A stretch of DNA of 64,000 nucleotides from NCBI GenBank assembly GCA_026398535.1, contig JAPLSQ010000052.1, positions 1 through 64,000 on the forward strand, read 5' to 3'. Below are positions 30,697-36,856 of the stretch, piece after piece. The notes under the pieces were generated by a model that saw only the letters and a list, made by a program, of their open reading frames with translations, was not told the origin of the DNA and did not search any database. A program made the position numbers and the translations under genes. This stretch comes from Candidatus Sumerlaeota bacterium. Lineage in GTDB: Bacteria; Sumerlaeota; Sumerlaeia; Sumerlaeales; Sumerlaeaceae. The number at the start of each line of letters is the position of its first letter. Positions within the stretch are counted from its first letter, which is position 1.

Positions 30697-31017
30697 ATGG
30701 ACAATGTAACATTAGCACGCTATGAAGCTCGGGCGCAGATCGCCAAGGCCTTGGCTCATTCCACACGGCTTTTCATCATCGATGAGCTTTCGCGTCGCGA
30801 CATCTGCGTCTGTGATCTCACAGAGATGATTGGCGCCGACATCTCCACTGTCTCCAAGCATCTCACGATTCTCAAGTCCGCCGGCCTCGTTCAAGGCAGA
30901 AAGCACGGCGCGCAGATATTCTACCGGCTCCGTTGCCCGTGCGTCCTCGGATTTTTTGGCTGCATGGAATCCGTGTTGAAATCGGTCGCGGAAGGAAACG
31001 CCTGCTGCGTGGCGTGA
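30697..31017 (+). CDS. arsR: ArsR/SmtB-family metalloid-responsive repressor
   Basis: The 106-residue winged-helix protein shows ALAHSTRLFIIDELS, then the ICVCDLTEM segment with two Cys in the alpha-3 metal site (typical As(III) ArsR 'ELCVCDL'). The recognition helix is ISTVSKHLTILKSAGLV, followed by the wing RKHGAQIFYRL. A further Cys group (CPCVLGFFGC and a C-terminal CC) could add ligands. It is the first gene of the ars operon, and the repeated TTGG-N-CCAAAT sites flank it. It should release DNA on binding As(III) or organoarsenicals. Confidence 0.92.
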   Translation: MDNVTLARYEARAQIAKALAHSTRLFIIDELSRRDICVCDLTEMIGADISTVSKHLTILKSAGLVQGRKHGAQIFYRLRCPCVLGFFGCMESVLKSVAEGNACCVA

Positions 31018-31036
31018 TCATGCCCTCCGATATTGA

Positions 31037-31059
31037 TTGGCCATTTCGCCAAATATCTT
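31037..31059 (+). promoter_or_regulatory. Third putative ArsR operator, before the permease gene
   Basis: TTGG-N8-CCAAAT spans 31037-31054, with inner perfect arms TTGGC/GCCAA. Its reverse complement matches the first upstream region at 11 of 14 positions (ATATnTGGCGAnnT). A possible -10-like TATCTT follows at 31054-31059, so the permease-arsEFG part may have its own regulated promoter. Confidence 0.5.
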
Positions 31060-31086
31060 ACGGAATAAGGAAGAATCGCACACCAA

Positions 31087-32388
31087 ATGAAACGTGAACT
31101 CAAGATACTGAGTGGGATCATCGTCATCTTCATTCTGATTTTCATCATCCCGCTTTCAAACACGAAAGTCACGGATGCGATTCTTGAGGGTTTGCGCCTG
31201 CTGCAATGGTATGCGCGCAACCACACACTTGCCTGTGTCGTGCCAGCCATGTTCATCGCCGGGGCAATCATCACTTTTCTGTCGAAGGATGCCGTCATGC
31301 GCTACCTCGGCCCGAATTCCAACCGCATCGTGGCTTATGGTCTGGCATCGGTCTCGGGAACGATACTCGCCGTCTGCTCGTGCAGCGTCCTGCCCATGTT
31401 CGCCGGCATCTGGAAACTGGGAGCCGGTCTTGGCCCCGCCAGCACGTTCTTGTACTCAGGCCCCGCCATCAACATCCTGGCAATTTTCCTCACAGCCCGC
31501 GTTCTGGGATTTAAAATCGGTTTGGCGCGCGCTATTGGCGCCGTCGTCTTCTCCATTCTTGTCGGCCTGCTCATGGCGCTCGTATTCCGCAAGGAAGAAC
31601 GCGCGCGCGCCAACGCATGGATTGCTGACGCGGCGCCCGCCAAACATCCATGGTGGCAGAAAGGCATCTTTTTCGTCTGCCTTGTGATGTTCCTGATTTT
31701 CAGCGACTGGTTTAATCCCGGGAATGTGGTCGTCACGACCACTGACAGCGCATCCTTCAAGGCCACGATTCTTCAGGAGATGGCCGACTCCACCATGTTT
31801 CAGTTGGACCAAGACTGGAACAATCACAAAACAGGCGATCAGGTGACACTGACGAAAACCGGGATCGCGAACATCAGGGAGGCCGACACATGGGTCATCC
31901 GTATTCATCACGCTCGCTGGTATCTTGCTGGCCTCATGCTTCTGGGAGTCCTGTTTGCGTGCTGGCGCTGGTTGGAGCGAGAGGAATTGCGCGGGTGGAT
32001 GGTCAACACATGGGAATTTTCCAAAATCATTGTCCCACTGCTTTTTGGCGGGGTGTTTGTTGTGGGTTTTGTCGCGCCCTTTCTGCCGCAACAATATGTT
32101 GCCGGCCTCGTGGGCGACAACAGTTGGTCGGCCAACCTTGTCGCGAGCGTCATTGGCGCGTTCTGGTACTTTGCCACTCTCACGGAAATCCCGATCACCC
32201 AGGCGCTCATGAAACTCGGCATGAATGACGGTCCCGTCGTGGCCCTGTTGCTGGCCGGCCCCGCGCTCTCGCTACCCAGCATGATTGTGCTCAACCGCCT
32301 CATGGGATGGAAAAAAACGGTCGTGTTTTGCCTTCTCGTTGTGATCATGGCCACAGTGACGGGTAAATTCTTCGGCACTTTCTGGTGA
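31087..32388 (+). CDS. arsP: Permease of the DUF318/ArsP type
   Basis: The 433-residue product has about nine membrane helices in two halves around a periplasmic or cytoplasmic insert (about residues 215-270). The hallmark CSCSVLPMFAGIWKLGAGLGPASTFLYSGPAIN is in the first half, and FWYFATLTEIPITQALMKLGMNDGPVVALLLAGPALSLPSMI in the second. ArsP members of this family export trivalent organoarsenicals. Here the position between arsR and arsEFG supports that role; substrate is inference. An AGGAAG lies about 14 bases before the ATG. Confidence 0.82.
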   Translation: MKRELKILSGIIVIFILIFIIPLSNTKVTDAILEGLRLLQWYARNHTLACVVPAMFIAGAIITFLSKDAVMRYLGPNSNRIVAYGLASVSGTILAVCSCSVLPMFAGIWKLGAGLGPASTFLYSGPAINILAIFLTARVLGFKIGLARAIGAVVFSILVGLLMALVFRKEERARANAWIADAAPAKHPWWQKGIFFVCLVMFLIFSDWFNPGNVVVTTTDSASFKATILQEMADSTMFQLDQDWNNHKTGDQVTLTKTGIANIREADTWVIRIHHARWYLAGLMLLGVLFACWRWLEREELRGWMVNTWEFSKIIVPLLFGGVFVVGFVAPFLPQQYVAGLVGDNSWSANLVASVIGAFWYFATLTEIPITQALMKLGMNDGPVVALLLAGPALSLPSMIVLNRLMGWKKTVVFCLLVVIMATVTGKFFGTFW

Positions 32389-32397
32389 TGCCGTCCG

Positions 32398-32411
32398 CAT
32401 CGCATGCGATG
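32398..32411. repeat. 14-base perfect palindrome between arsP and arsE
   Basis: CATCGCATGCGATG equals its reverse complement and sits 10 bases after the permease stop. There is no T run, so it is not an obvious terminator; it could stabilise the 3' end of the upstream message or bind a protein. The remaining 66 bases to arsE hold only an AT-rich leader with AGAAGGA as ribosome binding site. Confidence 0.35.
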
Positions 32412-32477
32412 ATGCAACCCGCGCAAACAGAGAGATGTCTAAAATATGTCATTTAATGATAAAAGAAGGACAACCAC

Positions 32478-32711
32478 TTGAAAAAGCTGCAAATACTGGG
32501 CGCCGGCTGCCCCAAATGCAAGAAGCTGGCTGAAGCTGTCGAAGAGGCGGCAAAATCCCTTAACATTGATTACGAACTAACCAAGGTCACCGACATCAAT
32601 GAAATCATCGGATTTGGCGTTATGTCCACACCCGCGCTCGTGATTGATGGAAACGTTAAAGTAAGCGGACGCGTTCCAACCATGGATGAAATAAAGAAAC
32701 TGCTGGCATGA
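32478..32711 (+). CDS. arsE: Small thioredoxin-fold redox protein (ArsE-like, 'redox-active disulfide protein')
   Basis: The 77-residue product has MKKLQILGAGCPKCKKLAE with the redox pair Cys11/Cys14, the cis-Pro loop FGVMSTPALVIDG, and a C-terminal helix. It is a minimal thioredoxin-like protein without signal peptide. It starts at a TTG (32478) after AGAAGGA. Known: in arsEFG operons such a protein accompanies ArsF and ArsG in resistance to aromatic arsenicals. Assignment as ArsE depends on the neighbours. Confidence 0.8.
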   Translation: MKKLQILGAGCPKCKKLAEAVEEAAKSLNIDYELTKVTDINEIIGFGVMSTPALVIDGNVKVSGRVPTMDEIKKLLA

Positions 32712-32761
32712 GGCTGGCAATCATGGCCGCATAAACAATCTGTTAAATAGAAAGGCTGATC

Positions 32762-33262
32762 ATGAATTCTTACAGACTCGCTTCTCTCCTCGCCATTGCG
32801 GGGCTTCTCCTGTTCTCATCCGTGGCATTCGCGGAAGAAAAGGAAAAGGCCCAATCCGCCCCCGACTCGAAAGCCGCCCTGACCGACAAATCGGCCGACA
32901 CGGACAAATCCAAGACGCCATCCGCCAACAAGATCATCATTTATTATTTTCACGGCGACATGCGCTGTGCCAACTGCATCAAGTTTGAGAACTGGACCGC
33001 CGAAACCCTGAAAACATCCTTCGCTGAGCAGATGAAGGATGGCTCGGTTGAATGGCGCATCGTGAACACCGACCAGAAGGACAACCAGCATTTCATGAAG
33101 GATTACCAGCTCTTCACCAAATCGGTCGTCCTCGTGCAGATGAAGAACGGCAAGCAGGTTAAATTCAAAAACCTCGCCAACATCTGGCAGTTGCTCAACA
33201 GCCAGAAAGCGTTCATGGAATACATCAAGACCGAGATCAGCGCAATGGCGAACGCCAAATGA
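32762..33262 (+). CDS. arsF: ArsF-family exported thioredoxin-like protein (nitrophenyl-arsenical reductase subunit)
   Basis: The 166-residue product has a signal peptide (residues 1-24), a Lys/Asp/Ser-rich linker (25-56), and a thioredoxin-like domain with YYFHGDMRCANCIKFE carrying Cys69/Cys72, then WRIVNTDQKDNQHFMKDYQL and SVVLVQMKNGKQVKFKNL. Known: ArsF is described as a nitroreductase component acting on nitro-aromatic arsenicals. The protein would sit in the periplasm or on the outer face of the inner membrane. It is coupled to arsG by an ATGA overlap at 33259-33262. Confidence 0.82.
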   Translation: MNSYRLASLLAIAGLLLFSSVAFAEEKEKAQSAPDSKAALTDKSADTDKSKTPSANKIIIYYFHGDMRCANCIKFENWTAETLKTSFAEQMKDGSVEWRIVNTDQKDNQHFMKDYQLFTKSVVLVQMKNGKQVKFKNLANIWQLLNSQKAFMEYIKTEISAMANAK

Positions 33263-33972
33263 CGGAGGGGCTTTTTCTTGGCGCGCTCTCGGCGCTGTGG
33301 TTTGGCATACTGACATCCATAAGCCCCTGCCCCCTCGCCACCAACATCGCCGCCATGTCGTTCATCGGCAAGCGCGTCAGTAGCCCGGTAAAAGTGCTGC
33401 TGACCGGCGCCCTCTACACCCTCGGGCGCATGCTTGCCTACATCGCGCTCGGTTTCGTCGTCGTGAAGGGATTGCTTTCGATCCCGGGCGTCGCGCAATT
33501 CCTTCAACAATACATGAACCTGCTCATGGGTCCCCTGCTCATTGTCGTGGGGATTTTCCTGCTCGGTGTGTTCTCGTTTAACATGCCCGGAGTGCCGGGC
33601 GGCGAGCGCCTGCGCGCGCTTGCCGAGAAGGGCGGTTATGTGGGAACCGTGTTGCTGGGCATCATCTTTGCGCTGACCATGTGCCCGGTTTCAGCCGGAC
33701 TGTTTTTCGGCAGCCTGATTCCGATTTCAATCAGTTGCGAGTCCTACCTGCTCATGCCATCCATTTACGGCATCGGCACGGGCCTGCCCGTGATCGCGTT
33801 CGCTGTCATCATCGCGCTCAGCGCAGGATCCATCGGCAAGGTGTTTAACAGGTTGTCCCAGTTCGAGTTCTGGGCAAGGCGCGTCACCGGCGCGATTTTT
33901 ATTATCGTCGGCATTTATTATATCATCAACAACCTGAAGCAATACGGCAGGGTGTTCTTTGATATGGATTGA
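33259..33972 (+). CDS. arsG: ArsG-family CcdA/DsbD-like membrane permease
   Basis: The 237-residue product has six or seven helices of the cytochrome-c-biogenesis CcdA/DsbD fold: GILTSISPCPLATNIAAMSFIGKRV (helix 1, proline-cysteine motif), ALYTLGRMLAYIALG, and the second-half LGIIFALTMCPVSAGLFFGSLIP with the matching Cys-Pro. Such proteins pass electrons across the membrane; the ArsG subgroup is described as an efflux permease for aminophenyl arsenicals. Coupled to arsF. A weak hairpin follows at 34002-34020. Confidence 0.82.
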   Translation: MTEGLFLGALSALWFGILTSISPCPLATNIAAMSFIGKRVSSPVKVLLTGALYTLGRMLAYIALGFVVVKGLLSIPGVAQFLQQYMNLLMGPLLIVVGIFLLGVFSFNMPGVPGGERLRALAEKGGYVGTVLLGIIFALTMCPVSAGLFFGSLIPISISCESYLLMPSIYGIGTGLPVIAFAVIIALSAGSIGKVFNRLSQFEFWARRVTGAIFIIVGIYYIINNLKQYGRVFFDMD

Positions 33973-34833
33973 ATAAGCAGACCGGGCGCTGTCCGGCAAA
34001 CAGAGTGTGCCGCGCACTCTTGCGTATCATCCTTGGTTTCAAATGACATGACCAGAAATGGAGAGAAGAATGGAACCACGCATGCTGATCTGTCGTGGGC
34101 TGGTGGTCGCCGATCCACAGACCGCTGAAATTTTCGACACTACAAAATATCCGGAAGGTTGTCTGATAAGCATTGGCGGGCCCATAGTTCGCGGTGAAAG
34201 ACGGTCGCCCGCCCCTCACCGGTTGTCCATCCTTCTGAATGGTCCAATCAAACACATAACACCCCTTCGCGTTTACCATCAATCTGATGGCAAGCGTATA
34301 CCAGTTACCGGGTTGAATGTGATCCTGCGGATCAGCGGGCTGGTACACCACGGATGAAAGAGGCGTGTCCGAGCTGTTGTCACGTTGAACCGTCATGAAG
34401 CATATCAGGCGGCCGGCCGGGATGCTGCAGGCGGTGCGATCAGCCGCTGTGCCATAGCCGATTTCGAAATCGGCCTCGCGGGCATCATAGTTGCCCGAGC
34501 CTGATTTCGGGGAGTAGAGGAAAGCTCCGATGGAACTCGAGGCGCCCATCTCTGTGAGCGGGGGAATGTAGACGCGCCATGTGTAGACGCCTGAAGTGAA
34601 GGTCGCGGTCGTGCGCGTCTTCACGCGGTCCCAAGTGTTGGCAGCCGTCTGCTATGAAGAGCGGTGGCGCCCGACGAGAAGGCGGCCACCTGAAAAGAGG
34701 TCAGCGAGATTGGCTGAGATGCATTCGTCCAACCGTCGGGAGCGACGCCCCAAGCAGTGGGTGTGTTGAAATCCCATAGGATATACTCTGCCTGGACTGG
34801 CATTGTCCATACTATGAAGATAAGTATCGGCAG
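33926..34833 (-). pseudogene. Frameshifted gene for an exported beta-sandwich-like protein
   Basis: Two minus-strand frames join to one protein. The first (about 34833-34623) has a signal peptide (LPILIFIVWTMPVQAEYIL) and NTPTAWGVAPDGWTN, then hits TGA after ...PTLGTA. The second frame resumes with TWDRVKTRTTATFTSGVYTW and runs through FEIGYGTAADRTACSIPAGRL, NWYTLAIRLMVNAKGCYVFDWTIQ and FRIFCSVENFSGLWIGDHQP, which reads as a concanavalin-A-like or GH16-like jelly roll. The shift is near 34630-34660. After about 34064 the frame runs into apparently random sequence and into arsG on the other strand, so the 3' end also looks lost. Function not recognised. Confidence 0.6.
34002..34020 (+). terminator. 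Hairpin after arsG, weak terminator candidate
   Basis: AGAGTGTG pairs with CGCACTCT (8 base pairs with one T-G) around a CCG loop, starting 30 bases after the arsG stop. The downstream TTGCGTATCATCCTTG is not a true T tract, so termination is uncertain. It may stabilise the operon 3' end. Confidence 0.35.
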
Positions 34834-34852
34834 GCAACGCGCGGATGCCTGC

Positions 34853-36856
34853 TCAGGCGGTTCCTTCGGTTGTTGTGTCAGGTTGTCTGGGCGGTTGTCT
34901 TCGCAACAGAGCTCCAAGCGAGCACAGTTCCTCCGCGCGCAGGAAAAATACGGCGGCAAGATAAACGACCGCCCCAACGATCACAAGAACGGCAAGGCGC
35001 AGGGCTTCAGGCGCCTGCAGGGCGCGCATGAGGCTGCTGCGCGAAACAGCTTTGGCTATGTGGAACTCCGGGCGCGCGCCGCTGACGGGCGGACGCACCA
35101 CCGCCACGAGATACGAAGGATTCATCGGAAGCGAAAGCGTCGCGGTTGTCCGGGCGCGCGCAGGGCGCCGGTGAACATCAACCTGAAAGGCTGCCACACC
35201 CGTATCATCGCGCGCCCACGAGCGCACATCCAGCGTGGTTGTCGTCTGCCCGCGCGGGCCGAAAATCGCCACCGCGCTCTCATACCGGAAATTCACGGAC
35301 GGCGGTGGCAAGGCGGAATGGTCAATCAGCCTCCAGAACTCCTTCCACCCGGCCTCTTCATTGATCACAACGGCCGTGCCGGCGGCCGCATCCTGCGGAA
35401 GCCGCAAAAGCGCGCGCGTTCCCTTGGCAAGAACCATGATATGGGGCTGTGTCAGATATTGCGCGGCGATCAGCAGAACAGTCATGGCCGCGGAGGCAAG
35501 CGCCATCTTGCCAAACGAGACCCCCATCCTGCGCCCGTCAAGCGATCCAAGCTTGTGGTGAATCATGACAAACGATATGATTGTCGTCGCCGTGTAAGTC
35601 AGCGTCGAGCTCAGCGCGATGCCCGGCACGCCCATGAAGCGCATCAGCAGAAAATTAAGGCCGATATTGACCGCCACTCCGATAATATTGATCCACGCGG
35701 GCGTCACTGTGTCCTTCATCGAGTAGAACACCCGCGTCGCAAATATGACCAGCGAGTATGGAAGAATCGAGAGCGCGTACAGGCTGAGAAAACGCGCGGT
35801 GAAAATGGAGTCGGTGTAGGTGAACTCGCCGCGCTCGAACAACACGCGCGAGATCGGCTCCGCCAGCAGCGACATGCCCAGTGCGATTGGCAACATGATG
35901 AAAACCGTCGACCGGAATCCGCGCGACATGTACACGCGAAATCCATCCCAATCCGAATCGGCGGCGTAACGCGACAATGCCGGATACAACACCGTCGCCA
36001 GGGACACGGCAAAGATGCCATAAGGCATCATGATAAGCTGAAAACAGAATGTGTAGGTCACGAACGCGCCGGCCACGGTGTACAACAGGTTCGTCCTGAC
36101 AACCGTGGCGACAAGGTTGGCGATGCTGACGGGCAGCATGGGCGCCGCCAGCTTCGGAACGATCACAAAGAGGGGATCAAATATGTTGAACCGCGGGCGA
36201 ATCGGCATGCCCGCCTTCAAAAGCCATGGAACCTGCACGAGCGCCATGACCGCCACGCCCAGCGTGGCGGCAAATGCCAGTCCGTCATCGCCAATCCAGC
36301 CGATGCGGTAGCCAAACAGGGCCGCGATGACGACGATGTTGTTGAGGATCGGGGCGCCCGCCGTGATGGCGAAAACATCATGCGAGTTGAGTATCGCCAT
36401 GAAGATGGAATTCAGGCCATAAAAAATCATCTGCCACGCGAAATAGCGCAGAAACACCTCCGCCAGTTCCTTGCTTTCCACCGCCTGATTGCCCCGCGCC
36501 AGCCATGTCATCGAACCGATAATCTGTGGCGAAAACACTGCCGCCGCCAGTGAAACCAGCGCAAGCACGACCCCCACATAACCCACAAGAAGGTTGGCAA
36601 CGCGCCATGCCTCGGCCGATGATTTGCCCGATTTCTCCTGCTCATGCACAAGAATCGGGATGAAGATCGCGCTCAGCAGGCCGCCCAGCATGGCCTCATA
36701 GATGATATTGGGAATTGTGTTGGCGAGCTGGAAGGCATCGTTCAAGCGTGAACGACCCAGAATCATCGCGAACATCATGACCCGCAAAAGTCCGGTCAGG
36801 CGGCTTATCAGCGTCAGCGCGGAAAAAACAGCCGTGTTTTTAACCAGCTGGCTCAT
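34853..36856 (-). CDS. murJ: Lipid II flippase MurJ with an inserted PrcB-like periplasmic domain
   Basis: The 667-residue product starts as a standard MurJ: VKNTAVFSALTLISRLTGLLRVMMFA, DAFQLANTIPNIIYEAMLGGLLSAIFIP, YGIFAVSLATVLYPALSRYA and LPIALGMSLLAEPISRVLFERGEFT, with 12 helices to about residue 467. MurJ normally is about 500-530 residues. Here residues about 480-615 form an extra soluble region before one last helix (619-640). Its core, VVINEEAGWKEFWRLI, PPPSVNFRYESAVAIFG and PSYLVAVVRPP, resembles the PrcB C-terminal domain. It flips lipid II for peptidoglycan synthesis. It clusters with the muropeptide epimerase and murE. Fusion, not misassembly, is supported by one uninterrupted frame. 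Confidence 0.92.
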   Translation of the reverse strand: MSQLVKNTAVFSALTLISRLTGLLRVMMFAMILGRSRLNDAFQLANTIPNIIYEAMLGGLLSAIFIPILVHEQEKSGKSSAEAWRVANLLVGYVGVVLALVSLAAAVFSPQIIGSMTWLARGNQAVESKELAEVFLRYFAWQMIFYGLNSIFMAILNSHDVFAITAGAPILNNIVVIAALFGYRIGWIGDDGLAFAATLGVAVMALVQVPWLLKAGMPIRPRFNIFDPLFVIVPKLAAPMLPVSIANLVATVVRTNLLYTVAGAFVTYTFCFQLIMMPYGIFAVSLATVLYPALSRYAADSDWDGFRVYMSRGFRSTVFIMLPIALGMSLLAEPISRVLFERGEFTYTDSIFTARFLSLYALSILPYSLVIFATRVFYSMKDTVTPAWINIIGVAVNIGLNFLLMRFMGVPGIALSSTLTYTATTIISFVMIHHKLGSLDGRRMGVSFGKMALASAAMTVLLIAAQYLTQPHIMVLAKGTRALLRLPQDAAAGTAVVINEEAGWKEFWRLIDHSALPPPSVNFRYESAVAIFGPRGQTTTTLDVRSWARDDTGVAAFQVDVHRRPARARTTATLSLPMNPSYLVAVVRPPVSGARPEFHIAKAVSRSSLMRALQAPEALRLAVLVIVGAVVYLAAVFFLRAEELCSLGALLRRQPPRQPDTTTEGTA

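Follow-up and report, generated by a model that had tools for sequence, protein, structure and literature searches.

Transmembrane helices (TMs) 13 and 14 of MurJ form a hydrophobic groove, the presumed site of the lipid tail (PMC6465408, PMC9973255), and residues R18, R24, and R270 of this flippase (E. coli numbering) are reported to be essential (PMC9973255). PrcB is known to us from a single characterised representative, that of Treponema denticola, a lipoprotein that interacts with the PrtP protease and is required for it (PMC8167434). In Treponema, PrcB helps to stabilise a protease. We identified no ligand of a PrcB domain.

The window (the whole stretch of DNA analysed, 64,000 nucleotides of a Candidatus Sumerlaeota bacterium) encodes a MurJ family protein that carries a PrcB-like periplasmic β-domain inserted between TM13 and TM14. 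We demonstrate here the insertion, its position, its conservation, and its remote homology to PrcB; the domain homology and the anatomy of the protein are well supported, and we hold both with high confidence.

MurJ frame and membrane core

The murJ gene lies on the minus strand (positions 34853 to 36856) and, as the preliminary description had stated, is one uninterrupted frame of 667 residues that starts with ATG and has no internal stop. The protein matches TIGR01695 with 290.5 bits, above the curated cut-off of 235.55, and PF03023 with an E-value of 5.6e-85; the matches to the MurJ family profiles end near residue 470. An AlphaFold2 model of the full-length protein, based on an alignment of seven sequences (six with the insert and one without), has a pLDDT of 81 and a pTM of 0.82 and contains the 14-helix MOP fold, and its core overlays 7waw across 496 residues with a TM-score of 0.86 by target length (Foldseek). 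A 598-residue frame on the plus strand (34757-36553), antisense to murJ, resembles the shadow frame of a GC-rich gene.

From the model and the Foldseek overlay, the core of TM1 to TM12 comprises residues 1-440 (35537-36856, minus strand, as for all features of the gene). TM13 (residues 441-469; 35450-35536) was delimited by the modelled helix and by alignment with insert-free MurJs, and is followed by the β-domain (residues 473-601; 35054-35440), a linker with a short helix (residues 602-615; 35012-35053), and TM14 (residues 616-638; 34943-35011), the last of which aligns to TM14 of both E. coli MurJ and L008, the nearest insert-free relative. The linker contains the motif RALQAPE, which is largely conserved in the alignment of inserts; its helix (residues 608-613) is modelled with low confidence. 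Folded alone, the insert has a pLDDT of 79.

The region that had first drawn attention (35042-35374) corresponds to residues 495-605. It had been described as part of a soluble stretch of residues 480 to 615, approximately, between the last membrane segments; the placement is correct, but the AlphaFold2 model puts the start nearer to residue 473. Similarly, the extra domain reported as a fusion is present, but as an internal insertion between TM13 and TM14 and not as an end fusion. In both E. coli MurJ and L008, the TM13-14 loop is only short in the alignment. The N- and C-terminal ends of MurJ are both cytoplasmic, and this loop is therefore periplasmic; the model and the alignment with insert-free MurJs thus agree with the proposed periplasmic location between the last two membrane helices.

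Relationship of the insert to PrcB

Neither the 667-residue protein nor any of the seven inserts known from the order matches PF14343 (PrcB_C), and no match to this family was identified in 40 genomes of the phylum. Because PF14343 spans only 56 positions, we built a full-length PrcB alignment from a comparison set of 31 PrcB domains (28 loci of distant genomes); the alignment retained (A3) has 25 members, all 25 of which match PF14343. Profile-profile comparison of the insert with PrcB (hhalign) gave a probability of 97.7% and a score of about 70, compared with a mean of 10.3 and a maximum of 17.7 for 100 column-shuffled controls. When the PrcB profile was searched against the 2182 frames of all loci, six of the seven inserts ranked next after the true PrcB proteins, with E-values of 1e-5 to 1e-3, while the seventh (L003) had a chance-like E-value of 3.5. 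The reciprocal search of the same 2182 frames with the insert profile (hmmsearch) recovered PrcB proteins with E-values down to 2e-8; the top-ranked frame that belongs to neither set (E-value 0.034) lies antisense to the insert.

The inserts and PrcB domains share a strand-helix start (VVINEEAGWKEFW), the PxVDF motif, and the AVAIF strand after it. In the protein of the window, the PxVDF motif common to PrcB domains aligns to PSVNF (residues 519-523; 35288-35302); the proline and phenylalanine are invariant among the inserts, and in PrcB domains the phenylalanine reaches a conservation of 90% or more. The hallmark TGGY loop of PrcB, with its invariant preceding glycine, is absent, and the inserts have PRGxTT instead; in the alignments, PRGQTTTT (residues 534-541; 35234-35257) takes the place of the PrcB GxxPTGGY. 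The earlier label of PrcB-like therefore stands with respect to the hhalign comparison and the reciprocal hmmsearch, but not with respect to PF14343 or the TGGY hallmark. Judged by profile comparison, the insert is a remote PrcB-like domain that lies outside PF14343; we use this label without PF14343 membership because the profiles match but single sequences fail, and because the TGGY loop is replaced.

No solved structure of a PrcB relative was found, the insert model had no Foldseek match with an E-value below 0.001 among the PDB and viral models, and a PDB sequence search with the insert returned nothing notable. Pfam and NCBIfam matches of the inserts were chance-like only, and a viral turret domain, matched by one insert at 4e-4, was set aside in that the other inserts did not match it.

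Elsewhere, PrcB_C domains occur on zf-HC2 anti-sigma-like, VWA, and CsgG proteins. One zf-HC2 anti-sigma-like protein (L067) has PrcB_C at its C-terminal end, an architecture that hints that PrcB domains are perhaps outer sensors or docking sites. In a distant genome, a 982-residue frame (L073; G284:C51) contains five PrcB_C-like repeats.

Distribution and history of the insert

The insert was identified at the same site in 7/7 MurJs found in the order (one order of Candidatus Sumerlaeota), spanning six genera, in keeping with the expectation that relatives would have it in the same place. Six of these MurJs are open frames of 663-702 residues, and the gene for the seventh is divided between two contigs, the second of which carries the insert. 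A misassembly or frameshift, which the preliminary description had raised as grounds for dismissing the insert, is ruled out by the same insert in all seven MurJs, including one from a single-contig genome of 3.3 Mb. The eighth genome of the order (66% complete) has no MurJ match by protein or family search. The insert profile had no match in the other 31 genomes of the class. Among the early-ending matches listed in a MurJ survey of 291 genomes, no frame was of sufficient length to contain an insert of this kind.

In the tree, the six complete insert-bearing MurJs and the split one form a single clade (support 100/99), the sister of which is L008, an insert-free MurJ from another family with an empty site. 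A single gain would be the simplest history of the insert. The PxVDF and RALQAPE motifs, and mostly PRGxTT, are retained in the inserts of the six genera, with a mean pairwise identity within the order of 28% for the insert versus 60% for the core. The GC content of the insert is 0.64 versus 0.57 for the core, and with GC3 similar (0.72 and 0.75, respectively) this difference does not indicate a recent foreign origin.

Cavity and gate residues

In the insert clade and L008, E. coli D25, R52, R53, and E57 are replaced by V/L, Y, E, and G, and D269, R270, E273, and K368 by F, Q/I/V/S, M/Q, and hydrophobic residues, respectively; the R270 equivalent is Q/I/V within the order. The insert clade retains R18, G21, R24, D39, and F157 (R24 is K in L008), and also has an arginine (R254) that all its members share and that no other MurJ of the sample has. 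In the 667-residue protein, the replaced cavity sites and R254 are residues 26, 53, 58, 254, 272, 273, and 276. The essential arginine set is thus incomplete, with R18 and R24 kept and R270 replaced, and the MurJ of the order is a divergent MurJ, which matches the family profile and the fold but not the full arginine set. The insert clade has also lost the E57-K368/R352 thin gate on both sides. The cavity and gate losses predate the insert because they are shared by the insert-free L008, and for the same reason we reject an origin of the insert as compensation for lost gate residues.

Gene content and neighbourhood

Five of the six family genomes checked encode one MurJ each, and Amj was identified in none of the six. 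MraY and FtsW/RodA matches are present in the family genomes, as are MurG-like matches in 5/6, although only one of the MurG matches is above the curated cut-off. Because it is the sole MurJ in five of the six genomes, with no Amj and with MraY, FtsW/RodA, and MurG-like proteins present, the insert-bearing MurJ is the best flippase candidate, and from this gene content we infer that it flips lipid II. That lipid II is the substrate we can only infer, since the cavity is without residues that are essential in E. coli MurJ.

The sixth genome (G005) encodes a second MurJ-like protein (L086; G005:C70:67000-70200), a 544-residue frame without R18 and G21, which by its sequence is probably another MOP flippase. 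FtsW/RodA (PF01098) has only one match per genome (G000-G005); many bacteria have two or more FtsW/RodA proteins.

In the window, murJ adjoins a Mur ligase (murE-like) gene and an L-Ala-D/L-Glu epimerase-like gene. The neighbours of murJ vary between genomes, with fusA and lipoylation genes in several, and no conserved murJ neighbour that would suggest a partner was identified in the window. Also beside murJ (30697-33972, plus strand) are genes for an ArsR-type regulator, an ArsP_1 permease, and ArsF-family and ArsG-family proteins in a row, which resemble an arsenical or metal resistance cluster.

Potential role of the domain

We tentatively favour a role as a periplasmic docking module, proposed by analogy with PrcB. 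The PrcB-like β-domain would have entered the periplasmic TM13-TM14 loop of the order's MurJ once, and would overhang the protein on its periplasmic side, next to the groove that these two helices form for the lipid tail. There it could act as a protein-docking module for a partner in the periplasm or the membrane, the most plausible one being the cell-wall synthesis machinery, and keep this partner near the exit of flipped lipid II, in the manner of PrcB, which holds on to a partner protein within the dentilisin complex of Treponema. Docking is preferred on the basis of the PrcB-PrtP interaction and of the presence of PrcB_C on zf-HC2, VWA, and CsgG proteins; against it, the functional analogy draws on one characterised protein, and the fast evolution of the insert (28% identity versus 60% in the core) leaves no obvious docking face that is conserved. 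A role within the molecule, in which the domain would link TM13 and TM14 and cap or stabilise one state of the transport cycle, is unlikely: the domain bridges exactly the two helices of the lipid groove, in a clade where gating must differ because both sides of the thin gate are missing, but the insert did not arise with the gate losses, which the insert-free sister L008 shares. A ligand sensor that binds glycan, lipid II, or a small molecule and tunes flipping is likewise doubtful; Mycobacterium MviN provides a precedent for accessory domains on MurJ (PMC12599244), and PrcB_C is found on a zf-HC2 anti-sigma-like protein, but neither a known PrcB ligand nor a solved structure or fold match points to a ligand.

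The low identity of the insert (28%) and the variability of the loop would suit a tolerated passenger, inserted by chance and retained by drift in an exposed loop, but all MurJs identified in the order, from six genera, have kept the frame, fold, and motifs, which makes this improbable. A tethered regulator or sensor, as proposed in the preliminary description, is possible. The suggestion in the preliminary description that lipid II flipping is linked to a protease or envelope-stress pathway fared worst and appears very improbable: it draws on the remote PrcB homology and on the role of PrcB with the PrtP protease, but the PrcB family name derives from one species' system, the genes around murJ vary from genome to genome, and those annotated next to it include no protease gene.

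Docking could extend to a divergent flippase with a rebuilt cavity and gate, in which the PrcB-like domain couples flipping to the polymerising machinery (one FtsW/RodA per genome). We consider this broader proposal decidedly unlikely; if true, the flippase would be an integral component of a complex that synthesises the cell wall. An extra periplasmic domain at the lipid groove offers a natural handle on how lipid II flipping is coordinated with the synthesis of the wall beyond the membrane, and the isolated domain could be used as bait for its partner. The clade also suggests that MurJ can manage without R52, E57, R270, and K368, and so provides a test of models of substrate binding and gating.

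Comparison with known systems

In the literature covered, which is only part of what exists, we found no MurJ-PrcB fusion; the insert-bearing MurJ is a real variant of MurJ, conserved in one order and new to that literature. It shares with MurJ/MviN (TIGR01695, PF03023; 6cc4, 7waw, 5t77) the same fold, the 14 membrane helices, and R18, G21, R24, D39, and F157, but it adds a domain of about 130 residues between TM13 and TM14, and E. coli D25, R52, E57, D269, R270, E273, and K368 are replaced. The insert resembles the PrcB C-terminal domain in its succession of a strand, a W/F-bearing helix, PxVDF, the AVAIF strand, and then long strands; it sits inside a flippase, whereas the PrcB domain of Treponema denticola is on a lipoprotein. 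Mycobacterium MviN is similar in being a MurJ with extra regulatory domains (pseudokinase and carbohydrate-binding), but its pseudokinase (residues 710-942) lies past the flippase core, whereas the MurJ described here has one β-domain within the TM13-14 loop (PMC12599244).
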